Part shown: one piece after another, positions 12,662 through 38,220 of the stretch
Position numbering within the stretch: position 1 is the first letter of the stretch
Layout of the letters: every line of letters begins with the position of its first letter
NCBI GenBank assembly: GCA_900317565.1
Contig: ONHI01000012.1
Location: forward strand, 1-38,220
Direction of reading: 5' to 3'
DNA: 38,220 nucleotides
Source: an uncultured Eubacteriales bacterium
GTDB lineage: Bacteria > Bacillota > Clostridia > Christensenellales > Aristaeellaceae
Notes under the pieces: model-generated
Told to the model about the DNA's origin: nothing
Database searches by the model: none
What the model saw: the letters and a program-made list of their open reading frames with translations, nothing else
Translations under genes and position numbers: made by a program

Positions 12662-12804
12662 TGATTGTCGGCGTGCTACCCTTCGGGGCCCGCCGACCCG
12701 GAAAACGTTCCGTTTTCCTAATCAGTATACCATGATTGTCGGCGTGCGGCCCTTCGGGGCCCGCCGACCCGGAAAACGTTCCGTTTTCCTAATCAGTATA
12801 CCAT
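12662..12804. repeat. Two-copy tandem repeat, 71-bp unit, with hairpins
   Basis: Two nearly identical units start at 12662 and 12733 and differ mainly at two adjacent bases (TA in the first, GG in the second). Each unit contains a GC-rich dyad (GTCGGCG with CGCCGAC around GGCCCTTCGGGGCC) and a second perfect hairpin, GGAAAACG-TTC-CGTTTTCC. The structure resembles a REP/BIME-type palindromic element or a doubled terminator. I found no further copy in the window. Confidence 0.85.
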
Positions 12805-16126: not shown

Positions 16127-16894
16127 TTACTTTTTCTTGGCGTACTTGGACGAGATCCAGCCGCTCTTGCCGTCGTAGCTGACATGGCGCCACACCACGC
16201 CGCGCTCGTCCTTGCGGGTCTCGTCATAGGTCAGGGTCGTGCCCTTGGGTACGGTCAGGATATCGTTGTAATCCCTGCCCGCGCCGGTGCGCAGGTGCAC
16301 GTTGCCGGTGGTCTTCAGCTTCTTGCCGGAGCTGCTGCTGCCCGAGGAGCTGCTGCTGCCCGAGGAGCTGCCGCTGCCGCTCTTGGCGTAGGCCGAGGAC
16401 ACCCAGCCGGTGCGCTTCTTGTAGGTCACGCGATACCAGGTCACGCCCCGGTCGTCCTTCGCGGTCTTGTCATAGCTCAGGCTCACGCCCTCGGGGACCG
16501 TGCGGATCACGCTGTAGTCCGTGCCCGCGCCCTTGCGCAGGTTCACGCTGGCGGTGGTCGTCACCTTGCCGCTGGCGGAGGAGCCGCTGCTGCCGGAGCT
16601 GGAGCTGCCGGAGGGCTTCTTCGTCGAGGCGTACTTGGAGGACACCCAGCCGGTGCGGCCCTTGTAATCGACACGATACCACTTCACGCCGCGGTCGTCC
16701 GTCGAGGTCTTGTCGTACTCCAGCTTGACGCCAGAGCCGATGCTGCGGATGGAGCTGTAATCCAGGCCGGGGCCCTTGCGCAGGTTCAGGTTGCCGGTGG
16801 TCCACACCGTGCCGTCCTCCGCCAGCGCGGCAAACGCAGACAGGCAGATCACCGCAATCAGCAGCGCCGCCATGAATTTTTGGATCATTTTCAT
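16127..16894 (-). CDS. Secreted protein with three SH3 repeats
   Basis: The 255-residue protein has a signal peptide (FMAALLIAVICLSAFAALA) and three bacterial SH3 domains, each beginning with NLRKG or HLRTG. They lie at about 30-92, 110-170 and 193-253. Each has VKWYRVDYKGRTGWVSSKYA or an equivalent with the conserved GWVSS/GWISS end. Two linkers rich in Ser and Gly (PSGSSSSGSSGSSASG and a longer one) join them. Nothing catalytic is present, so a wall-binding or ligand-capturing role is likely. The start codon lies inside a 38-bp tandem duplication (16871-16946), so a second ATG with the same context sits 38 bases upstream in another frame; I use 16894 because only it opens the full protein. 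Confidence 0.88.
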   Translation of the reverse strand: MKMIQKFMAALLIAVICLSAFAALAEDGTVWTTGNLNLRKGPGLDYSSIRSIGSGVKLEYDKTSTDDRGVKWYRVDYKGRTGWVSSKYASTKKPSGSSSSGSSGSSASGKVTTTASVNLRKGAGTDYSVIRTVPEGVSLSYDKTAKDDRGVTWYRVTYKKRTGWVSSAYAKSGSGSSSGSSSSSGSSSSGKKLKTTGNVHLRTGAGRDYNDILTVPKGTTLTYDETRKDERGVVWRHVSYDGKSGWISSKYAKKK

Positions 16895-16946
16895 ATATTT
16901 GACACCTCCATGAATTTTTGGATCATTTTCATATATTTGACGCCTC
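16871..16946 (-). repeat. 38-bp tandem duplication across the start codon
   Basis: Bases 16871-16908 and 16909-16946 are the same 38-bp unit with one difference (ACACC against ACGCC). Each unit contains a ribosome binding site and ATGAAAATGATCC. The upstream copy opens a 13-residue frame at 16932, MKMIQKFMEVSNI, whose TGA stop (16893-16891) overlaps the real ATG at 16894 as ATGA. The short frame could therefore couple to, or compete with, translation of the SH3 gene. Confidence 0.9.
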
Positions 16947-16996
16947 CATGCTCGTTTTAGTTCCTGGATTTCAGGCCAAATTGTATGTTTTCCCGA

Positions 16997-26849: not shown

Positions 26850-26908
26850 CTGCTCCCTACTCGCTATTCCTATTCCCTACTCCCTATTCCCTACTCCCTA
26901 CTCCCTAA
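26850..26908 (-). repeat. Heptad tandem repeat at the 3' end of lspA
   Basis: On the minus strand a run of 7-base units of the form TAGGGAG or TAGGGAA (one 6-base unit and one TAGCGAG) begins in the last codons of lspA, supplies its TAG stop and continues to the ribosome binding site of the rluD-like gene. Confidence 0.9.
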
Positions 26909-27343
26909 TTCCCCGACAATCGCCATCGCCGCCCCGACGCATATGCACACGTCGGCCACGTTGAACACGGCGAAGCGGACGAAGGCCAGCTCGATGAAAT
27001 CGGCGACACCGCCCGCGGTGAGCCGGTCGTAGAGGTTCCCCAGACCGCCGCCGACGATCAGCCAGAGCCCGGCGCGGGTAAGCCGCGGCTCATCGGGCCT
27101 TGCCACGAGCCATGCCGCGAGCCCGGCGATCAGCAGCGCCGTGAACACCGTCAGCAGCAGGCTCTGGCCGGAGAGCAGCGAAAAGGCCATGCCCCGGTTC
27201 TCCACCGGGCGCAGGTTCAATATCCCCGGCAGCAGCGCCGTGGCCCGGGGCACCAGCCGCGCCACCGCCACCTTGCTCAGCCGGTCGGCCAGCGCCGCCA
27301 GCAGCGCGATCCACCAGCCCCTACATCCTCGCCTCAATCGCAT
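26891..27343 (-). CDS. lspA: Signal peptidase II (lipoprotein signal peptidase)
   Basis: The 150-residue protein has four membrane helices and the LspA signatures. NLRPVENRGMAFSLL (about 43-57) is the N-R-G-x-AF box. NLYDRLTAGGVADFIEL (about 103-119) carries the first catalytic Asp (D115), and FNVADV (about 127-132) carries the second (D131). It cleaves prolipoproteins after lipid addition by Lgt, whose gene is also in this window. The ATG at 27343 has GGAGGTCATTC upstream and overlaps the DUF5665-like gene by 23 bases. The last residues, ELGSRE, are written by heptad repeat units, so the C-terminus has been reshaped by the repeat. The basic start (MRLRRGCRGWW) is usual for a first helix. Confidence 0.95.
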   Translation of the reverse strand: MRLRRGCRGWWIALLAALADRLSKVAVARLVPRATALLPGILNLRPVENRGMAFSLLSGQSLLLTVFTALLIAGLAAWLVARPDEPRLTRAGLWLIVGGGLGNLYDRLTAGGVADFIELAFVRFAVFNVADVCICVGAAMAIVGELGSRE

Positions 27344-27599
27344 GAATGACCTCCGCCAAAAAGCCGCCGATCAGCGGTATGTTGTCCACCACCAGCCCCC
27401 GCAGCAGCACCGCCAGCAGCGCGCCCAGCACCGAAAAGCCCAGCGTAAAGCCCAGCCCCCGGCACGCGCCGTAGAGTATGTTCTCCGCGATCATGCGCCG
27501 CCGGTTGGACACGTGGTCCAGGTATTCCTCCAGCCGCATGCGCTCCAGCGCGCCCATCAGCCGGTCGATGCGCTCCCGATCCCGTCCGGTCACGTCCAT
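27321..27599 (-). CDS. DUF5665-like small membrane protein
   Basis: The roughly 92-residue protein has a charged N-terminal helix (RIDRLMGALERMRLEEYLDH), an amphipathic NRRRMIAENILYGACRGLGF segment and two membrane helices with the pattern GFSVLGALLAVLLRGL and NIPLIGGFLAEVIHAIE. This matches my recollection of DUF5665 proteins that lie near lspA and divIVA in clostridia; their role is unknown. The start is uncertain. The ATG at 27599 has GAGGGGGG directly before it, and a TTG at 27626 would add nine residues but has no ribosome binding site. Its end overlaps the lspA start, so translation is coupled. Confidence 0.75.
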   Translation of the reverse strand: MDVTGRDRERIDRLMGALERMRLEEYLDHVSNRRRMIAENILYGACRGLGFTLGFSVLGALLAVLLRGLVVDNIPLIGGFLAEVIHAIEARM

Positions 27600-27648
27600 C
27601 CCCCCTCGATTGGAGAGATTTCCCAACGGGCGGGCGATGTATGCGCAA

Positions 27649-27708
27649 AGCAGGGGCGGCGCAATGCCGCCCCCGCCCTATGACCGTTGCCTGTTGACCG
27701 TCGCCTTA
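27649..27708 (-). repeat. Degenerate heptads and GC palindrome after divIVA
   Basis: From the TAA stop of divIVA the minus strand reads in 7-base steps TAAGGCG, ACGGTCA, ACAGGCA, ACGGTCA, TAGGGCG. A GC palindrome (GGGGCGGC with GCCGCCCC, about 27655-27672) follows. A related palindrome (GGGCGGCGCATCGCCGCCC) lies at about 29488-29508. Confidence 0.6.
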
Positions 27709-28287
27709 AAACAGCCCGTTGCTCTCCCGCAGCGCGGTGGCCTGCTGGTCCAGCACGCGGCTGAACTCGGCCTTGTAGGCGGCGGCGGAGGCCTTCAGCG
27801 CCTCATAACGGGCCTCGAGGGTCTCCACGCGGCTCTTGGCGTCGGCGGTCAGCTCGTCCGCGTCCTTCTGGGCCTTGCCCAGCAGCGCGTCGGCCTTCTC
27901 CCGGGCGGACAGCGTGATCTGGTCGGCCTGGGCCTGGGCGTCGCCCACGGTCTTCTGGGCCTTGCGGTTGGCGTCCTCCAGGGTCTCGTCCGCGATGCGC
28001 TGGGCCCCGATCAGGGATTCGCGCATGGCGTTCTGCAGGTTCTGGAAGTAGCTCTTCTCGTTGTAATCCGGCGTCTTGGCCTCGGCGGCCTCGGTGGCGA
28101 CGCGGGCAGCCTGAACCTCGGCCTCCAGCGTCTTGATCTGCCGGTTCAGCTCCAGGTTCTCGCGCACCAGCGCGGCCATCTGCTCGGAAATCTCGTCCAG
28201 AAAGTCGTCAACCTGCTCGATATTGTAGCCGCCGGTGGCCTGCGTGCCAAATTCCTTCTCCTGAATGTCCCTTACGCTGATCGCCAT
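27706..28287 (-). CDS. divIVA: DivIVA-domain cell division protein
   Basis: The 193-residue protein opens MAISVRDIQEKEFGTQATGG followed by YNIEQVDDFLDEISEQM, which is the DivIVA membrane-binding N-domain (residues 1-50). Long coiled coils follow (about 50-180, rich in A, E, K and Q). DivIVA binds curved membrane at septa and poles and recruits other division proteins. I start at 28287, because the family begins with MAIS or MPLT; an ATG seven codons upstream is less likely. The coil is longer than in Bacillus DivIVA. Its stop is followed at once by the degenerate heptads. It lies between ylmH and the DUF5665-like gene, the usual clostridial order. Confidence 0.93.
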   Translation of the reverse strand: MAISVRDIQEKEFGTQATGGYNIEQVDDFLDEISEQMAALVRENLELNRQIKTLEAEVQAARVATEAAEAKTPDYNEKSYFQNLQNAMRESLIGAQRIADETLEDANRKAQKTVGDAQAQADQITLSAREKADALLGKAQKDADELTADAKSRVETLEARYEALKASAAAYKAEFSRVLDQQATALRESNGLF

Positions 28288-28400
28288 GTCGATAACCGTC
28301 CTTTCCATTGTATGTCTATCGTCAAAATCGCGTTGTGCGCTATCTGATGATTGTTCGACAAACGGAGGCGCTTTTCCTGCCTGCTCCCGTTATGTTTCCA

Positions 28401-29153
28401 TTATTTGCCGTATTTGAACACCTGCACCACCTGCCGCCCCCGGCGGGATTCCCCCTGGAAGGCCACCACGCGCACCCGCCCGTAGCCCCGGGCGGAGATC
28501 AGGTCCCCCTCGGCAAGATGGGCGTCCGCGTGGGTGTTGGGCACGTGGTTCAGCTTCACCAGGCCCGCGCCGATCAGCCGCTGGGCCTCGCTGCGGGACA
28601 GCCGGCAGGCCGCGGCCAGCACGGCGTCCAGGCGCTCCTGCTGCACCGTCAGCCGCAGGGTCGTCCCCTCCGGCGGCGTCAGCGCCGGCGTCTCCTCCGC
28701 CACGCAGGCCTTCAGCGCCGCGCGGCCCGCGCTGTCCAGGTTGGCGGCGATGTAATCCGCCATGTCCTCCAGCGCAAAAAGGTAGGCGCAGGGGCCGCCG
28801 CGGTATTCCCCCATGGCGATGTCGCCGGTGGTCTCCCGCTCGATGCCCAGGCCCATCACCGCGCCCAGCAGGTCCCGGTGGCCGGGGCTGGCGAACTTCG
28901 CGTTCCAGCTCAGCCGCAGCGCGACGATCGGCCACTCCCAGGGCTCCGGCTCCATGTCGCAGAACGCGGCCACGCAGCGCTCCGCGCCATCATAGCCGCC
29001 CCAGAAGCAGGCCTTCACCCCCGCCCGGGCCGCCGCGGCGCGCACCGCGTCCGCCTGGGAGGGCTCGAGAAACCGGGTGTAGCAGGCCGTGCCCGTATGG
29101 GCCGCCCGCAGGGCCAGCTCGTTCAGGCGCTTCTCCAGCGCGTCCGCCATCAT
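28401..29153 (-). CDS. ylmH: YlmH-like S4-domain RNA-binding protein
   Basis: The 250-residue protein has the YlmH layout: an N-terminal alpha/beta part (about 15-100, with FLEPSQADAVRAAAARAG and WNAKFASPGHRDLLGAVMGL at about 90-110) and a C-terminal S4 RNA-binding domain (about 180-230: RLDAVLAAACRLSRSEAQRL followed by GLVKLNH). The motif GHRDLLGA-x-GLGIERETTGDI is characteristic. YlmH is linked to ribosome rescue and quality control in Bacillota and sits in the division cluster. The ATG at 29153 overlaps the stop of ylmG as ATGA, so translation is coupled; longer readings upstream are shadows of the ylmG frame. Confidence 0.92.
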   Translation of the reverse strand: MMADALEKRLNELALRAAHTGTACYTRFLEPSQADAVRAAAARAGVKACFWGGYDGAERCVAAFCDMEPEPWEWPIVALRLSWNAKFASPGHRDLLGAVMGLGIERETTGDIAMGEYRGGPCAYLFALEDMADYIAANLDSAGRAALKACVAEETPALTPPEGTTLRLTVQQERLDAVLAAACRLSRSEAQRLIGAGLVKLNHVPNTHADAHLAEGDLISARGYGRVRVVAFQGESRRGRQVVQVFKYGK

Positions 29154-29440
29154 AGCACCCGGGCCAGCAGCAGGTACAGCCGCCACCAGAGCCGCTCCAC
29201 CAGCTGATAGCCGATCAGCGCGAACAGGCAGGTGAAGTCCAGCGGCGCGCGGAAGTACTGCATCACCTTCAGGGACAGCTTCTGGAAGGGCGATATGAAG
29301 GGCTGTATGAACGCGCGCAGCATGTAGAACGCCCGGAAGGTGGGCCGGAACCAACTGAGCACGCAGTAGATGAGGATCGCCGCCGTGATCAGCCGCAGGA
29401 ACAGATAGCCCGCGTAAAACACCTCGTACAGTCCCAGCAT
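29150..29440 (-). CDS. ylmG: YggT/YlmG-family membrane protein
   Basis: The 96-residue protein has two membrane segments: the first about 10-30 (LFLRLITAAILIYCVLSWFR) and the second about 68-92. The central amphipathic FIQPFISPFQKL segment is the conserved P-F/P-x-R block of the YggT family. YlmG proteins assist septum or nucleoid positioning in several bacteria. AGGAAGGGG precedes the start at 29440, and the last four bases overlap ylmH. The gene lies directly after the sepF-associated repeat region. Confidence 0.9.
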   Translation of the reverse strand: MLGLYEVFYAGYLFLRLITAAILIYCVLSWFRPTFRAFYMLRAFIQPFISPFQKLSLKVMQYFRAPLDFTCLFALIGYQLVERLWWRLYLLLARVL

Positions 29441-29543
29441 GCCGTCATCCCCTTCCTGTGCGAACGTTTCCCTGATGCCTTTTCTGTGGGCGGGCGGCGC
29501 ATCGCCGCCCCTACATACCGTTCCCCTGATGCCTATTCAGTGG
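29441..29543. other. Short intergenic segment with GC palindrome
   Basis: This stretch carries GGGCGGCGCATCGCCGCCC (about 29490-29508) followed by CCTACAT, a palindromic motif related to the one at 27655-27672. No gene is seen. Confidence 0.4.
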
Positions 29544-29672
29544 GCGGGGGGCGACCTCTTCCGTCAGCCCTGCGGGCTGCCACCTCCCATGGGCCTAGCC
29601 GGCCCGTCCTCACTGGAAAATGTCCACTGGACATTTTCCCGGGCGTTCGGACCCCCTGAAGGGGAAGGCTTT
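29544..29672 (-). repeat. Interspersed 125-bp repeat, copy 1
   Basis: From GCGACCTCTTCCG to GGGGAAGGCTTT this segment matches 33518-33639 almost base for base over the second two-thirds. It holds a perfect 25-base palindrome at 29615-29639 (GGAAAATGTCCA, one base, TGGACATTTTCC). It lies after sepF and its heptads in the transcript direction. Confidence 0.92.
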
Positions 29673-29675
29673 TGC

Positions 29676-29722
29676 CCACCATTCCTATTGCCTATTGCCT
29701 GATGCCTATTGCCTATTGCCTA
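29676..29722 (-). repeat. Heptad tandem repeat at the 3' end of sepF
   Basis: On the minus strand the TAG stop of sepF is the first TAG of a run of 7-base units of the form AGGCAAT (with one AGGCATC and a final AGGAATGG). Confidence 0.88.
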
Positions 29723-30421
29723 GAATCTCCTGTCGATATCATACGCCTCGTTGACCTCCACGGACATCGGGGCGACGAGATAGGTCTTGTCGGAGGCCTT
29801 GCGGATGCTGGCGTGCAGCGCGAACACGGCCCCGGAGAGGGTGTCCACGGCCCGCTGCAGCAGCCTGCCGTCCAGCTCGTCCATGGTCAGCACCACGGTG
29901 TTGTTGGCGATCAGCTGGTCGATGACCTCGCAGCAGTCCTCCAGCGAGTGCAGCGAATACATCACCGTGCGGGAGCGCTGGCTGACGCGCATCTGGCGCT
30001 GGGGCGCGACCCGGGCCGGCGGCGCGCTCTCATAGCGGGATTCGCTGGGCTGGGCATAGCGGGGGGTCGTCCGCGGCGCGGTCCGGGCGGTATAGCCCGA
30101 ATCGTCGAAGCGGGAATCCGCGCGGCGCTCGGCGGCGCGATAGTCGTCATAGCCCCGCGGGGTGCGGTTCTCATAGCGGCTGCTCTCGTAGCGGCTGCGG
30201 GGCGCGGGCTCGGGCGCCAGCCTGCGCGTGGGCGCGGCCTGCCGGGCGGTCGTCTGCCGGCTGCTGGCGCTGCTGCGCGGCCGCGCGGGCGTATAGGCCG
30301 CCTTCCGGCCGTAGCTGTCGCTGGAGTATTCCTCCCCATAGGTATCCCGCGTTTCCTCATCGTCCACCAGGCCGATGAAGTTCAAGAGCTTGTTGAAGCC
30401 TCCGGATTTGTTGCGCGCCAT
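29720..30421 (-). CDS. sepF: SepF-like division protein with long basic linker
   Basis: The 233-residue protein has an N-terminal amphipathic segment (FNKLLNFIGLVDDEETRD), a long linker rich in R, S, P and Y (about 30-145, e.g. YTPARPRSSASSRQTTARQ), and a C-terminal SepF domain (about 148-233: TVMYSLHSLEDCCEVIDQLI, NTVVLTMDELDGRLLQRAVD, FLSGAVFAL-like block and VAPMSVEV). SepF anchors FtsZ filaments at the membrane and shapes the septum. The linker is longer and more basic than in Bacillus SepF and may contact other partners. AGAGGGGAAAACC precedes the start. The stop codon TAG is the first unit of the heptad repeat. Confidence 0.92.
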   Translation of the reverse strand: MARNKSGGFNKLLNFIGLVDDEETRDTYGEEYSSDSYGRKAAYTPARPRSSASSRQTTARQAAPTRRLAPEPAPRSRYESSRYENRTPRGYDDYRAAERRADSRFDDSGYTARTAPRTTPRYAQPSESRYESAPPARVAPQRQMRVSQRSRTVMYSLHSLEDCCEVIDQLIANNTVVLTMDELDGRLLQRAVDTLSGAVFALHASIRKASDKTYLVAPMSVEVNEAYDIDRRF

Positions 30422-30453
30422 GGTTTTCCCCTCTTATCCTCAACGTATGTTCG

Positions 30454-31152
30454 TCAATTATCAATCTTCTTCGGCCTCGCGCCGAACAGCGCCCGGCCCA
30501 GCCGGACCATCGTCGCGCCCTCCTGGGCGGCGACGACGGCGTCGTCGGACATGCCCATGGACAGCGTGCGCATCTGCACGCCGGGCAGGTCCATGTCCCG
30601 CAGCCGGTCGAACCACTCCCGCATCCGGCGGAAGTAGGGCCGCACGTCCTCCGGGTCGTCGGCGATGGGCATGATGGCCATCAGGCCCTCGACCCTCAGC
30701 CCCGGAAGCTGGGCGCACTGCTGCAAAAAGGGCAGCAGCAGTTCCTCGTCGATGCCCGCCTTTTGCGGCTCACGGGCGATGTTCACCTGCACCAGCACCG
30801 GCATCACGCGCCCCGCGGCCACCGCGCGGCGGGAGATCTCCAGCGCCAGAGCCTCCCGGTCCAGCGACTGTATCATGGCCACCTTGTCGATGGCGGCCTT
30901 GACCTTGTTGGTCTGCAGCTGCCCGATCAGGTGGATCTCAAACGCCGGGTTCAAGCGGTCCAGCTTGCCCACGAGCTCCTGCACCCGGTTTTCGCCCAGC
31001 GTGCGTATGCCGCCGTCCCAGGCCATGTTGATCGTCTCCGGGTCCACGGTCTTGCTGACGCCACAGATCTCGGCCCCGCCCCATTTCGCCGAGGCCTCGC
31101 CGATGCGCTCGCGCCATTCGGCGATGTTGGATAACAATTCTTCGCGGTTCAT
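30454..31152 (-). CDS. yggS: YggS/YlmE-family PLP-binding protein
   Basis: The 232-residue protein is a YggS-family PLP-homeostasis protein. EICGVSKTVDPETINMAWDG holds the PLP Lys (K34 when started at 31152) and GENRVQELVGK follows. HLIGQLQTNKVKAAIDKVAM, VLVQVNIAREPQKAGI and GLMAIMPIADDPEDVRPYF are conserved blocks, and LSMGMSDDAVVAAQEGATMV with RLGRALFG close the barrel. It buffers pyridoxal phosphate and amino and keto acid pools. A TTG at 31155 adds one residue; the ATG is preferred. It lies 20 bases after the hlyD-like gene and 32 before sepF, the common clostridial order. Confidence 0.95.
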   Translation of the reverse strand: MNREELLSNIAEWRERIGEASAKWGGAEICGVSKTVDPETINMAWDGGIRTLGENRVQELVGKLDRLNPAFEIHLIGQLQTNKVKAAIDKVAMIQSLDREALALEISRRAVAAGRVMPVLVQVNIAREPQKAGIDEELLLPFLQQCAQLPGLRVEGLMAIMPIADDPEDVRPYFRRMREWFDRLRDMDLPGVQMRTLSMGMSDDAVVAAQEGATMVRLGRALFGARPKKIDN

Positions 31153-31172
31153 CAATGCTCTCGCTCTTTACA

Positions 31173-32316
31173 CTATTTGATCAATATCGTCTGCCCCAGC
31201 TGCAGCGCGCCGTCCACCAGCGGCTGGATCATGGCGATGCTGCCGTCGGTGGAGAGCACCTCCACGGGCACGAAGGTGCCGCCGGGCACGTCGTACACCC
31301 AGACGCCCATCTGGCCGTTCTCGTTGTACAGCGCCTCGGAGCGCACGGAAAGTCCCGTCAGCGTGATGCTGAACTGGGCCTTGCCCTTGCGGCGATAGAT
31401 CAGCGGCCCGATGGGATCGTGGACCTCGAACACGGCCAGGGTGGTGTCGTTCTCCTTCTGGACGCTGTACACCGAGGCGGTGTAGCTGAGGTCGTCGAAG
31501 CCCTCCAGCTGCATGTAATAGTTGTCCTGGCCCACCACCGGCGTCCAGGTGTTGCCGGTGATCAGCACCGCCACATACCATTTGTCCTGGTCCACGACGC
31601 GGTATATGCCGTTGCCGCGGGTGCGCTTGGTGTTCTCCAGGTTGCTGCCGGCCAGCACCGCCCGCACGTCCGCGATGGACAGCGCGTTCAGCCGGCCGGG
31701 CGTCAGGTCGTTCTCATAGCCGTCGATGTAGAAGGACACCACGCCGTCCCGCTCCGCGGTGGAGACCTTGCGCCAGGACTGTATGCTGGACAGCCGGGTG
31801 TTCTCCTCGTCGTAGAGCTTGGTCAGCTTGTTGTCCCCGCGCTTGTTCTGGCGCAGGTATTCCTGGCGGTTCACCATGGCCGTCTCCAGCTGGCCGGTGA
31901 CGGTCTTCAGGTTGCCGGTGGTCTGGTGGGTGATCAGGTTCTTGAACTCCAGCGCCATCCACGATGTTGGCCAGCAGCTGCTTGTGATAGTCCTGTATCT
32001 TCTTGCGCGTGGCCTCCAGGTTGTTCAGCAGGCTCTCGGAATAGCCCGTGGTGTAGAGGTTCGCCACGTTGTCCCCCTCGGCCACCAGGGAATCCTCCGT
32101 GGCCACGTACTCCACCCGGGCGGTGGAATCCGACTCCGTGACGGCCTCGTCCCGTATGATCACGCAATCCACCGTCTGGCGCTGGGCCGCGTTGGCCATC
32201 ATGATGACCGTCTCCCGGGAGCCGGGGAACAGCATGGGCCGCAGGATCAGGAACGCGATCACCAGCAGCGCCACCAGGAACAGGTAGAACCTGCCGGTCA
32301 CTCTCTTTTTGCGCAT
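31173..32316 (-). pseudogene. HlyD-like membrane-fusion protein, frameshifted
   Basis: Two overlapping minus-strand frames encode one roughly 380-residue protein. The first (from 32316) gives a short cytoplasmic start, a membrane anchor (YLFLVALLVIAFLILRPML) and a region with ATEDSLVAEGDNVANLYTTG, an HlyD/biotinyl-lipoyl-like hairpin entry. The second frame takes over at about 31955-31965 and continues ALEFKNLITHQTTGNLKTVT and the beta-barrel part to ILIK at 31173. The break lies within the sequence GTGGATGGCGCTGG; to join the frames one base must be skipped. No slippery site is evident. HlyD-type adaptor genes are common beside yggS/sepF in clostridia. It may be a sequencing error or a recent loss of function. 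The promoter at 32398-32426 drives it and probably the division genes that follow. Confidence 0.78.
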
Positions 32317-32397
32317 AGCTCACGCTCCGATCGAATATGGAATCGCCGCAGCCGTCCCGGAGGGCGGCATGGGCAGGGTGCAACCATCGTATTCTAT

Positions 32398-32466
32398 ATT
32401 ATACGCCCTGTTGGGTTATGTTTCAATGCGCATCAATTGACTTTTTCGTGCCATAAACATTATAAT
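32398..32466. promoter_or_regulatory. Divergent promoters for hlyD-like cluster and lgt
   Basis: On the minus strand TTGAAA (32426-32421) and TATAAT (32403-32398) are spaced by 17 bases and point to the hlyD-like gene. On the plus strand TTGACT (32437-32442) and TATAAT (32461-32466) are spaced by 18 bases and point to lgt. The two -35 boxes are 10 bases apart, so polymerase binding at one may affect the other. Confidence 0.85.
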
Positions 32467-32506
32467 GTCTTTCAGGATAAGCCAAAAGCATCAGGAGGTC
32501 ATACCC

Positions 32507-33400
32507 TTGCTTGAATTCACCCCCACCTCCGCCATCGTGGCGGGGATAGAGATCCACTGGTACGGACTGATCATCGCCGTGGGCATGGCGCTGGCCGTGG
32601 CGCTGGCCTGCGCGCGGGAAAAGCGGCTGGGGCTGCCGAAGGACACCGCGCTGGACCTGGCGCTGGCGGGCATCCCCGGGGCCATCGTGTGCGCGCGGCT
32701 GTACTACGTGCTGTTCTCCTGGCAGGCCTACGCCGACGCGCCGATCCGGGCGCTGTACATCTGGGAGGGCGGGCTCGCCATCTACGGCGGCATCATCGGC
32801 GGCGTGCTGGTGGGCTTCATCTACGCCCGGCGCAAAAAACTGCCCTTTTTGAAGCTGGCCGACCTGGCCGCGCCTTCCATCGCGCTGGGCCAGGCGGTGG
32901 GGCGCTGGGGCAATTTCGTCAACCAGGAGGCCTTCGGCGACGTGGCCGCCCGGGAATGGCAGCGGGTCTTCCCCATCAGCGTGCTGATCGAGGCCGACGG
33001 CCAGTGGCACTACGCCACGTTCTTCTATGAGTCCGCCTGGTGCCTGCTGATCGTGCTGGCGCTGCTGTGGGCCGAAAAAAAGCGCCGCCTCCGGCGGGAG
33101 GGCGACGTGTTTACGGCCTATGTTTTCCTGTACGCGCTGGAGCGCTGCCTGGTGGAGGGCCTGCGCACCGACAGCCTGTACCTGGGGCCGCTGCGGGTCT
33201 CCCAGCTGCTCAGCCTGGTCGCGCTGCTGGCCTGCGCCGGGATCGCGCTGCGCCGCAGCCCCCGCAAGGCGCTGCCGGGAGCCTGCCTGGCCTGCTGCGC
33301 GGCGCTGGCGGCGCTGCTGCTGACGGGGCATCCCCTCGTGGCGCTGCCCTTCGCCGCCGGGGCGCTGGCGTGCTTTGCGGCGGAAATGCTGCGGGAGTAA
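32507..33400 (+). CDS. lgt: Prolipoprotein diacylglyceryl transferase
   Basis: The 297-residue membrane enzyme transfers diacylglycerol from phosphatidylglycerol to the lipobox Cys of prolipoproteins, the step before LspA. It shows IHWYGLIIA (the HxYG motif), GGLAIYGGIIGG, and the signature GQAVGRWGNFVNQEAFG with the essential Arg and the N-x-E end. The later Y-F/FYES-W and ALERCLVEGLRTDSLYLG blocks agree with the family. The C-terminus continues with extra hydrophobic, Ala/Leu-rich helices (about 240-297). The start is a TTG at 32507 with AGGAGG eight bases upstream; longer in-frame extensions upstream would overlap the -10 box. It is transcribed from its own promoter (32437-32466). Confidence 0.94.
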   Translation: MLEFTPTSAIVAGIEIHWYGLIIAVGMALAVALACAREKRLGLPKDTALDLALAGIPGAIVCARLYYVLFSWQAYADAPIRALYIWEGGLAIYGGIIGGVLVGFIYARRKKLPFLKLADLAAPSIALGQAVGRWGNFVNQEAFGDVAAREWQRVFPISVLIEADGQWHYATFFYESAWCLLIVLALLWAEKKRRLRREGDVFTAYVFLYALERCLVEGLRTDSLYLGPLRVSQLLSLVALLACAGIALRRSPRKALPGACLACCAALAALLLTGHPLVALPFAAGALACFAAEMLRE

Positions 33401-33441
33401 GGGCGGATTTCCCGAGGATGGGGAGATTTTTTACAGGGGAC

Positions 33442-33481
33442 CGGATTGCCACGTCGGCCTGACGGCCTCCTCGCAATGACA
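33442..33481. repeat. REP-like palindromic repeat remnant
   Basis: GGATTGCCACGTCGGCC and the inverted CGGCCTCCTCGCAATGACA ends form an imperfect hairpin of the type often scattered between genes in many bacteria. Only one copy is seen in this window. Confidence 0.5.
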
Positions 33482-33517
33482 TCGTTCGATGCGATTGACC
33501 CGAGGCCCGTCGCCTGG

Positions 33518-33639
33518 CGGGCGGCGACCTCTTCCGACCCTTCGGGGCACCTTCCATGGGTCTAGCCGGCCCGTCCTCACTGGAAAATGTCCACTGGACA
33601 TTTTCCCGGGCGTTCGGACCCCCTGAAGGGGAAGGCTTT
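33518..33639 (-). repeat. Interspersed 125-bp repeat, copy 2
   Basis: This copy runs from GGCGGCGACCTCTTCCG to GGGGAAGGCTTT and carries the same perfect 25-base palindrome (33582-33606). It differs from copy 1 mainly in a short segment after CTCTTCCG. It lies downstream of the phosphatase gene and its heptads in transcript direction. Confidence 0.92.
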
Positions 33640-33663
33640 GCCGTCCCTACGGGAGAACAGCGC

Positions 33664-33748
33664 TTCGCCATCCCCCAATTCCTAATTCCTCATTCCTAAT
33701 TCCTCATTCCTCATTCCCCTAATGCCTAATGCCTCTTGCCTAATGCCT
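33664..33748 (-). repeat. Heptad tandem repeat at the 3' end of the phosphatase gene
   Basis: On the minus strand about ten 7-base units of the forms TAGGCAT, TAGGCAA, GAGGCAT, TGAGGAA and TTAGGAA (one 8-base unit) start in the last codons of the phosphatase gene. They write its final residues ALGKRH and its TAG stop. Confidence 0.9.
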
Positions 33749-34181
33749 GGATGATCCCCCGACATCCCGTCTCGATCTGCCCGTACACCTCGGCGAAGCG
33801 GCCGGTGTACCAGGGGTCGTCGATGCCTGCATCGGAGCCCGCGAAGGACAGCAGCAGCCGCATCTTGCCCTCCGGGTCGTCGCAGATGCGCAGCATGTTG
33901 CGGATGTTGTAGGGCTCCATGGCGACGAGATAATCGTAATGGTCGTAGTCCGCCCGGGTCATCTGCCGCGCGGCATGGCCCTTGCAGGAAATGCCGTGCT
34001 TCGCCAGCTCCGCCCGGGCCGGGGGATACACCGGGTTGCCGATCTCCTCCCGGCTGGTGGCGGCGGAGGCAATCTCAAACGCGCCCTCCAGCCCCGCGTC
34101 CTTCACCAGCTTCTTCATCACATACTCCGCCATCGGCGAGCGGCAGATATTGCCGTGACACACAAACAGTATTTTTATCAT
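33726..34181 (-). CDS. Low-molecular-weight protein tyrosine phosphatase
   Basis: The 151-residue protein has the LMW-PTP P-loop directly after the first strand: ILFVCHGNICRSPMAEYVM with C8, R14 and S15. The general-acid pair is in GIDDPWYTGRF (D121 and D122 before P123). These enzymes remove phosphate from phosphotyrosine or, in some bacteria, phosphoarginine. I choose the ATG at 34181, because GGAGG lies six bases upstream and the P-loop would otherwise be too far from the start. The final residues ALGKRH come from heptad repeat units rather than from conserved family sequence. No kinase partner is visible in the window. Confidence 0.92.
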   Translation of the reverse strand: MIKILFVCHGNICRSPMAEYVMKKLVKDAGLEGAFEIASAATSREEIGNPVYPPARAELAKHGISCKGHAARQMTRADYDHYDYLVAMEPYNIRNMLRICDDPEGKMRLLLSFAGSDAGIDDPWYTGRFAEVYGQIETGCRGIIQALGKRH

Positions 34182-34284
34182 TCCAGGCCTCCAATTCCGT
34201 GATGCCCCCATTATACATCATATTCCCCGCTTTTTCCAGCGCCTTCGCCCGGCATGCGTTTTTCCGCTTCTCTGAATAAAACCG

Positions 34285-37800: not shown

Positions 37801-38220
37801 ATCCGACGCGCAGCTGTCGGTGCTCCGCCAGCCACTGGCGCTCCGTCGAGGACAGCGCGCGGCTGAGCTGTCGGTGCTCCGCCAGCCACTGGCGCTCCGT
37901 CGAGGACAGCGCGCGGCTGGAAATGCTGACCGGGTAGTATTTGTTGTCCAGAAAATGGATGTAATTCGGCTCGTTCACGGCCAGCTCCGTCTGCGCCGCG
38001 TTGAGCTCCGAAAGCAGCTCCGGCCTTGACTTGCTGACGCACAGGTAATAGTCCGATTCGCCGAAGGCATAGAGCAGCCGGGCGTGCGCCCGCCCGTAGG
38101 CGCCGTCCCCCTCGGCGGCGAGCACGTCGATCTCCTGGCTGTCGAACGCCTCGAACAGGGGCGCGTAATCCCGATAGAGAACGACTTCCGCCTCGACGCC
38201 GTGCTCCTGCAGGAACGTCC
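34862..38220 (-). CDS. Hybrid sensor kinase with periplasmic-binding-type sensor domains (5' partial)
   Basis: The frame enters from the right edge, so the start is not seen; about 1118 residues are visible. From right to left it shows the end of a first SBP_bac_3-like domain (to about 37920), then a second, complete one (about 37815-37170; LRVGYLNNYLPYSGTGADG to LAFRYTDQL). A membrane helix (about 37070-37130), a basic coiled coil, a PAS-like region (about 36500-36880) and HisKA follow, with SHEIRTPMNAIIGL and the phosphoacceptor His near 36396. The ATPase domain comes next (N box NILSNAIKF, G boxes DTGVGMD and GSTGLGMAIT), then two receiver domains. The first has DWKMPEMDG, with Asp near 35523, and the second DVRMPEMDG. 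This BvgS-like layout senses small ligands outside the cell and relays phosphate inside. The output partner is not in the window. Confidence 0.9.
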   Translation of the reverse strand, partial: TFLQEHGVEAEVVLYRDYAPLFEAFDSQEIDVLAAEGDGAYGRAHARLLYAFGESDYYLCVSKSRPELLSELNAAQTELAVNEPNYIHFLDNKYYPVSISSRALSSTERQWLAEHRQLSRALSSTERQWLAEHRQLRVGYLNNYLPYSGTGADGEATGLVRDIVPRLCQELNLGELDVSYIGFDSYNAMIASLGSGEIDTAFPVGGGMYYSEESGVFQTTPIVSAATELVYKGEYTEDTIARFAVNENNGMQYYFTLTYYPDAEIVFYPSIDACLKAVSEGEVSCTTLNGLRANDILRNSRYKGLSMLQTTYDDDRCFGVQIGNPGLLRLLNRGVSVLGAEYAQNLAFRYTDQLYNYSIGDMFREHMALFASIILGAAVLIILFLVRDRRRSKRELVNKETARRELERTSAELAESQRAKQRELEERLALQGELLEQQSRREQQDRMITALASDYRCVYHVDLDHDDAVCYRADPNDHEQTPEGVHFPYYERFAWYADHVVAEGYREGFLRFIEPDAVRVALANDLIIAYRYLARREGREYYEMIRMAGVRHAEDRDDHIVHAVGLGLTVIDAEMRETLDKNQTLVAALEAAEQANRAKTAFLSSMSHEIRTPMNAIIGLDSLALRNEALPAETREYLEKIGDSARHLLGLINDILDMSRIESGRLVLRKEEFAFSGMLEQINTMVMSQCSEKGLKYECRVIGGVNDYYIGDDMKLKQVLINILSNAIKFTDAPGSVTLTVERTATYEQQSTLRFSIRDTGVGMDQAFIPKIFDAFTQEDSSRNNRFGSTGLGMAITKNIVELMNGTISVQSEKGVGTEFTVVISLTNSEHRGVGTGYMRPGDMRILVVDDDAIDAEHARIVLDEAGIKADTCFSGREALQLLELRHTKHEPYNLVLLDWKMPEMDGLEVAKEIRKRYDKETTVIILTAFSWDEIMDEALHAGVDSFLAKPLFSSNVIDEFERIARKNNMSLYKEKNRAELKGRRILLAEDIMINAEIMKQIIMMREAEIDHAENGRIALEMFKASEPGHYDAILMDVRMPEMDGLETTAAIRALDRPDARRIPIIAMTANAFDEDVQQSLQAGMNAHLSKPVEPERLYETLEELIWDAENRGGYLKQ
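37812..37919 (-). repeat. 54-bp in-frame tandem duplication in the kinase gene
   Basis: Bases 37812-37865 and 37866-37919 are identical. They encode the 18 residues SRALSSTERQWLAEHRQL twice, at the junction between the two periplasmic-binding-type domains. The frame is kept, so the protein has a lengthened linker. Confidence 0.95.

Follow-up and report, generated by a model that had tools for sequence, protein, structure and literature searches.

Three genes in a 38 kb stretch of DNA (38,220 nt; hereafter the window) end inside tandem arrays of a 7-base unit, TAGGNAN, whose TAG serves as the stop codon. The window belongs to contig ONHI01000012.1 of assembly GCA_900317565.1, an uncultured Eubacteriales bacterium of the Aristaeellaceae. 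We propose, with a probability of roughly 0.6, that such heptad arrays are the inward-facing arms of dispersed intergenic elements built as arm, core and inverted arm, that the elements multiplied in one ruminant-gut Clostridia genus, and that the stop codon is a by-product. The elements are best read as similar to miniature inverted-repeat transposable elements (MITEs) or to REP doublets forming hairpins (REPINs; REP, repetitive extragenic palindromic). The position and strand of the arrays, their pairing, the match between paired arms, a cassette repeated in one relative and stop-free arrays at the same place were all observed directly.

Heptad arrays in the window

The arrays, the genes that they end and one further site are as follows; gene names are from Pfam.

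26866–26907, minus strand: TAGGGA[GA] heptad array of 6 units; ends lspA, contains its stop TAG at 26891–26893 and encodes ELGSRE
26891–27343, minus strand: lspA, signal peptidase II (Peptidase_A8)
29681–29722, minus strand: TAGGCA[AT] heptad array of 6 units (1 mismatch); the sepF stop is its first TAG, 29720–29722
29720–30421, minus strand: sepF (SepF)
33677–33748 (start approximate), minus strand: mixed TAGGCAN / GAGGAAT / TAGGAAT heptad array; contains the phosphatase stop at 33726–33728 and the residues ALGKRH
33726–34211, minus strand: low molecular weight phosphotyrosine phosphatase gene (LMWPc)
27677–27708, minus strand: claimed weaker array at divIVA; no period-7 signal

The three arrays are the only period-7 segments above threshold in the window. 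Two-unit TAGGNAN matches with at most one mismatch number 19, and 18 of them fall inside the three arrays; shuffled sequences gave 0.64 expected matches and a maximum of 3. The sepF stop is the TAG of unit 1, and the lspA and phosphatase stops are the TAG 14 bases further into the array. The preliminary description of this DNA had derived the TAG stops of lspA, sepF and the phosphatase gene from coding-strand TAGGNAN arrays, which is true for all three, and had ELGSRE and ALGKRH written by the array, as can be read from the array sequence in both cases. It had also placed a weaker array at the TAA of divIVA, a gene name that Pfam confirmed (DivIVA). This array was not recovered: the site holds no period-7 segment even below half the threshold, and none was reported by Tandem Repeats Finder at its lowest score. 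No Rfam family reaches the gathering score in the window.

Arrays adjoin the stop codons of upstream genes

The genome to which the window belongs (own genome, G000) comprises 3.55 Mb in 270 contigs and contains 288 overlapping three-unit TAGGNAN matches. We surveyed 636,371 bases of it, consisting of the window and 38 stretches, 18 of which were chosen for listed arrays and 20 regardless of arrays. Genes were called by a purpose-made codon model seeded on nine window genes, later confirmed by Pfam; the calls are not an independent annotation. The survey contains 44 arrays, none of them inside a called gene. In 34 cases the array follows the 3' end of a gene in coding-strand orientation, and for 25 of them the distance to the stop codon is at most 12 nt; on the other three sides of genes, no array (0/44) lies within 12 nt. 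The stop codon is supplied by the array in 16 of the 44 cases, at unit 1, 2 and 3 in 8, 2 and 6 of them, and 9 of the 25 stop-near arrays begin 1–12 nt behind the native stop.

Neighbouring genes on both sides are available for 41 arrays; 23 of these lie no more than 12 nt from a sense stop, whereas 2000 random placements averaged 4.5 and never exceeded 14. Since the null model draws position and strand at random inside gaps of present length and does not represent gaps that were short before insertion, the size of this stop preference is to be taken as an upper estimate. The 20 stretches taken regardless of arrays (283 kb) hold 10 arrays, and for 8 of them a sense stop is no more than 12 nt away. 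The arrays keep to gene ends and the coding strand, and the pattern holds well beyond the window. The preliminary description had proposed to scan for array strand and distance to stops; clustering at sense stops, rather than random placement, is what such a scan of the 636 kb found.

For period 7, a wider search by period in the same 636 kb gave 49 noncoding arrays and 1 coding array; no other period between 4 and 15 gave more than two noncoding arrays. The sole heptad array inside a called gene lies at 2469–2502 of stretch L032 and consists of TGGAGTG units. The reverse-read pattern was tried as a control (25 versus 288 matches in the own genome, 8 versus 44 arrays in the survey, 70 versus 130 in the relative G018). 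Because TAGGGAT reads identically backwards, this control is not clean, and it was not used for inference.

Stop-bearing and stop-free arrays occupy the same place

Altogether, 115 arrays outside genes (49 own, 66 from relatives) were classed by the presence of a stop codon in the consensus unit, which bears one in 83 arrays and is stop-free in 32; own and relatives' arrays are pooled, paired arms are counted separately, and a stop-free consensus can hide a stop in a single unit. Among sense 3' arrays, a position within 12 nt of the stop is found for 43/56 stop-rich arrays and for 12/18 stop-free ones (Fisher P 0.54). The gene end is overlapped by at least 3 nt in 25/56 stop-rich and 2/18 stop-free arrays (P 0.011). 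Adjoining a stop is independent of units bearing stops, whereas running into the gene depends on it. Stop-rich arms stand at 56 to 27 for the sense-3' versus the antisense-5' position (P 0.002), and at 31 to 27 once overlapping arms are excluded; for stop-free arms the ratios are 18 to 13 and 16 to 13. This balance indicates that the strand bias in this sample comes from arms that have turned into stops.

The claim that stop-bearing heptads place stops in three frames holds necessarily, so a gene entered by such an array is terminated at unit 1, 2 or 3, where the 16 supplied stops lie. The further inference of the preliminary description, that the array works as an all-frame stop, is unsupported, as stop-free arrays sit just as near to stops. 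In the 39 own arrays with all five fixed letters in the consensus (239 units), T, A, G, G and A are kept in 85.4, 97.9, 97.5, 97.9 and 98.3% of units; the T, which TAG requires, scores lowest. Of the 230 unit joints in TAGGNAN-type own arrays, 200 retain a stop of one sort or another.

Paired arms, cores and a repeated cassette

When neighbouring arrays at most 450 bp apart were compared in relatives by the direction of the G-rich strand, 19 pairs faced inward, none outward and 2 were tandem; three of the 19 inward pairs lie between convergent genes, each of which could own an array. Paired arms are more alike than shuffled partners (0.896 versus 0.783; 15 pairs from four genomes), and only 1 of 5000 shuffles was as high. 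By eye, two cores recur between the arms. The first has AATAGCNGCTGCCGCG-like ends, the second GTGCAAATCC...GGATTTG hairpins, and short hairpins in inverted arrangement are visible in the cores. An exact 30-base array was found 18 times in G018, within 40 stretches selected for their arrays; at 14 of the 18 copies both flanks are near-identical, namely TTCTGATTTGTCGAGCTGACGCGC and AAATAGCGACTGCCGCG with small changes. Inverted outer ends were seen by eye at a few loci.

In the own genome, the sequence TAGGAATAG, which resembles the start of the first core, ends 7 of the 44 arrays. The tail of the lspA array, GGAATAGCG, when compared by eye, also resembles how this core type begins in the relatives. 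Of the 44 own arrays, 28 have a downstream flank with a stretch in common with another flank; two of these lie in the window. Two arrays of the window are followed by copies of one dispersed repeat:

29543–29676, minus strand: dispersed repeat with GGAAAATGTCCASTGGACATTTTCC palindrome, directly downstream of the sepF array
33516–33642, minus strand: second copy of that dispersed repeat, downstream of the phosphatase array

The two copies are 91.8% identical over 134 columns, and the GGAAAATGTCCASTGGACATTTTCC palindrome occurs 5 times in the 636 kb. Elements with AATTCTGATTTRTCGAGC-like ends (L240 of G018 and L264 of a second relative, G008) seem, by eye, to carry a heptad arm in some cases and to lack it in others, and the arm may be an optional part of them.

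Occurrence in relatives and at orthologous gene ends

Matches to TAGGNAN are found in 26 of 28 genus genomes (own included), with 1 to 476 matches each. Outside the genus they are found in 7 of 122 relatives, two of which have more than two matches, and in a sample of the class 25 of 391 genomes match, own included. A distant second genus of the class (g119: G164, G198, G252, G341, G382, G417) has moderate numbers of TAGGNAN matches with many TAGGGAC/TAGGAAC units. The SepF relatives among named records comprise 25 loci of uncultured Clostridiales or Clostridia, several with titles that name the gut of sheep, goat or roe deer, plus one partial match in a Bacteroidales record. Many G018 arrays (L222–L261) lie near contig ends, as though the repeats broke the assembly; array counts of draft genomes may thus be low estimates.

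Further heptad families, AGAGTNN, AATGAGG, GAGAATG, CAGAGTA and AATTGGG, were found, also at gene ends, in 20 stretches of relatives; these were partly chosen around known hits and come from eleven genomes, ten within the genus plus G033 from elsewhere in the family. In slices from 30 nt before to 60 nt behind the stop of orthologous lspA, sepF and phosphatase genes, a period-7 array is present at 17 of 82 loci, always on the coding strand (17/17) and from several families; control slices within these genes gave 0/82. Two of the 17, both of one family and located after sepF in G006 and G004, are without any stop.

The preliminary description had suggested comparing the C-termini with those of relatives lacking the repeat, where identical tails would tell against array-written ends. 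Counted by eye, the outcome differs between the three proteins. LspA tails vary between species, relatives without an array end differently, and ELGSRE is written by the array. The C-terminal pattern YDxDxxF is shared by 20 of the 28 SepF orthologues; at 7 of these 20 loci an array or a short heptad run starts at the TAG, and at the 13 without an array that place is taken by TGA in 11 and TAG in 2. As the motif is kept with and without an array, the sepF array supplies the stop and not the tail. The phosphatase of G027, which has no array, ends in ALGRR, similar to ALGKRH; its tail is therefore ambiguous and gives no clean proof of overwriting. In a tree of LspA, SepF and the phosphatase, the seven array-bearing sepF loci are spread over at least 3 parts of the genus, the branches near the own genome being weakly supported; on this three-protein tree, repeated gain of sepF arrays and repeated loss appear indistinguishable.

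Origin of the arrays

According to the reading that we favour, an element fills the gap from the stop codon of the upstream gene to the start region of the next gene. Its left arm would be sense to the upstream gene and adjoin its stop, and its right arm would be antisense and leave at least 16 nt to the next start. If a stop-bearing arm landed in the final codons, it would become the new gene end, with the three frames covered within three units. Arms that supply a stop would probably be retained while the partner arm decays, because their loss would, as we propose, cause readthrough, and this would produce the one-sided picture seen in the window. The elements would have spread by transposition with the help of a mobiliser.

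For empty sites, array clusters of G018 were compared with 1.09 Mb of G008, in which 24 of 51 had a flank match, many to other repeats, and eight places were inspected closely. At one of them (L223/L207), the G018 element stands directly behind the stop and G008 has a short element-free gap; the left junction alone is seen, with no right junction. At three others (L230/L220, L228/L219, L252/L219), a heptad or hairpin element is present in both genomes. As a candidate mobiliser we considered the Y1 transposase, which is present (Y1_Tnp) in 16 of the 28 genus genomes.

A number of observations weigh against the proposed elements. The comparison of G018 with G008 yields no complete empty site with target duplication. 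Searches for the Y1 transposase (PF01797) found none in the drafts of the own genome and of the array-rich G001, which has the most matches, and the candidate was rejected. The own genome has 1 inward and 3 tandem pairs, most of its arrays being single, and a two-unit partner within 450 bp downstream is inverted for 5/44 and direct for 3/44 own arrays. The same core at one shared locus is accompanied by TAGGGAT units in G018 and by TAGGTTT/TAGGTTG in G008, which implies that units also change in place. In the wider period search, one own array is antisense and lies 5 nt from a stop, and one relative's array is sense and lies 7 nt before a start; the position rule thus has exceptions.

Several of these points would suit microsatellites born by slippage, in which 7-base expansion of a purine strand is best tolerated at gene ends, takes place in situ and turns over fast, while the cores and cassettes are unrelated neighbours. 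Period 7 alone stands out between genes, unit families differ at the same orthologous gene ends, the close species G018 and G008 differ in the whole array at one locus, and the majority of own arrays have no partner arm. However, slippage is hard to reconcile with an identical 30-base array between near-identical flanks at 14 places of G018, with recurring cores and with inward pairs of matched arms, and we consider it possible but rather unlikely. The lack of partner arms in most own arrays also counts against a putative 3'-end RNA hairpin, in which inverted arms would pair in the transcript, protect or terminate the mRNA and be selected for complementarity. Although the arrays are located at gene ends and inward arms of one family can pair and match in family, no Rfam family was found in the window, and such a hairpin seems improbable.

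Selection by the host for an all-frame stop, which would prevent readthrough and frameshifted extension into the next gene, could draw on the 16 of 44 arrays that supply a stop, the stop-rich majority of consensus units (83/115 arrays outside genes) and the stops retained at 200 of 230 joints. It is nevertheless quite improbable, given that stop-free arrays occupy the same position, that 9 of 25 close arrays start 1–12 nt after a native stop, that among the fixed letters the T of TAG is conserved worst, and that 115 of the 122 relatives outside the genus are without a match. Regulation by G-quadruplexes, as discussed for GGGAATC repeats, appears highly improbable. A three-tier motif is present in 23/50 own period-7 arrays, near the 56% and 42% given for Xanthomonas in the accessible part of Rehm 2015 (PMC4692102), but in only 11/66 arrays of relatives and 17/55 arms within 12 nt of a stop, minorities that cannot explain the shared position; the relatives' families already point to quadruplex-free arrays with the same distribution.

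An extension of the arm–core–inverted arm reading, which we regard as unlikely, is that the ends are made for safe landing: inward stop-rich arms would end any gene entering from either side within three units. If true, insertion at gene ends would be harmless in either orientation, which would open a large class of tolerated sites; the element would be locked in as a host stop, and stop-rich units would be selected for the element and not for the host. More generally, if the elements often become stop codons, they would offer a route for rewriting C-terminal tails in compact genomes.

Other repeats in the window

Three repeats of other kinds were observed in the window.

12662–12804: two 71-base copies, 97% identical, with a GGAAAACG...CGTTTTCC palindrome, between called genes
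16870–16950: AT-rich 38-base unit present twice (97%), at the start of a minus-strand gene (called at 16127–16873) and immediately outside it
37812–37919: exact 54-base (18-codon) duplication within a large minus-strand reading frame

Comparison with known repeats

Short tandemly repeated repetitive (STRR) sequences of cyanobacteria are tandem heptanucleotides in intergenic DNA, and the present arrays resemble them as tandem heptanucleotides between genes. REPINs and bacterial interspersed mosaic elements (BIMEs) are paired inverted REP hairpins dispersed between genes. The elements proposed here would share with them inverted pairs, small hairpins and intergenic dispersal, but have heptad arms, and the Y1 transposase was not found in the own genome or G001. 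MITEs are short and non-coding, with inverted ends and many copies. The proposed elements would likewise be short and non-coding with inverted ends, and their copies are repeated in G018; different from MITEs, no target-site duplication was obtained from the G018/G008 comparison, and no parent transposase is known for them.

Our literature search, in which subscription journals were thinly covered, found nothing on heptad repeats in rumen Clostridia. The link between heptads and stop codons, which the preliminary description had taken as undescribed, is reported in both Rehm 2015 (PMC4692102) and MacGregor 2015 (PMC4679880), each represented here by its accessible part. Rehm 2015 (PMC4692102) describes GGGAATC / GGGGA(C/T)T heptameric intergenic repeats of Xanthomonas and Nostoc, which lie on the sense strand within 50 bp of a stop or antisense upstream of an open reading frame (ORF), some overlapping the stop, with 70 and 75 convergent-pair cases in two Xanthomonas genomes. 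They were studied as quadruplex formers and are reported to have generally no association with mobile elements; MITEs are named there as a class. According to MacGregor 2015 (PMC4679880), the TAACTGA direct repeats of Beggiatoaceae, a 7-base unit with stops in all three frames, overlap the stop of the upstream gene in 13 ORFs, and forward repeats in ORFs are necessarily at ORF ends.

As far as these texts allow a comparison, our arrays agree with the Xanthomonas and Nostoc heptads in being G-rich, with similar letters, and in their intergenic, stop-near sense position. The inward pairs of the relatives and the quadruplex-motif share of own arrays may be further likenesses, but own arrays are mostly single and only a minority of the relatives' arrays have the motif. 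They differ from those of Xanthomonas in the cassette repeated in one species, in several unit families that share cores and positions, and in the lack of a quadruplex motif in most of the relatives' arrays. With TAACTGA they share the 7-base unit, the all-frame stops and the overlap with stop codons. In the accessible parts of the literature compared, we did not meet stop-free families at the same place, a balance of arms once stop-supplying arms are removed, cores shared by several families or a repeated cassette. Our analysis would tie the heptad–stop link, noted repeatedly before, to the arm structure of dispersed elements. The repeats of Xanthomonas, Nostoc and Beggiatoaceae are close precedents: in position, and probably in pairing, the present arrays are like those of Xanthomonas, and in the all-frame stop like those of Beggiatoaceae.

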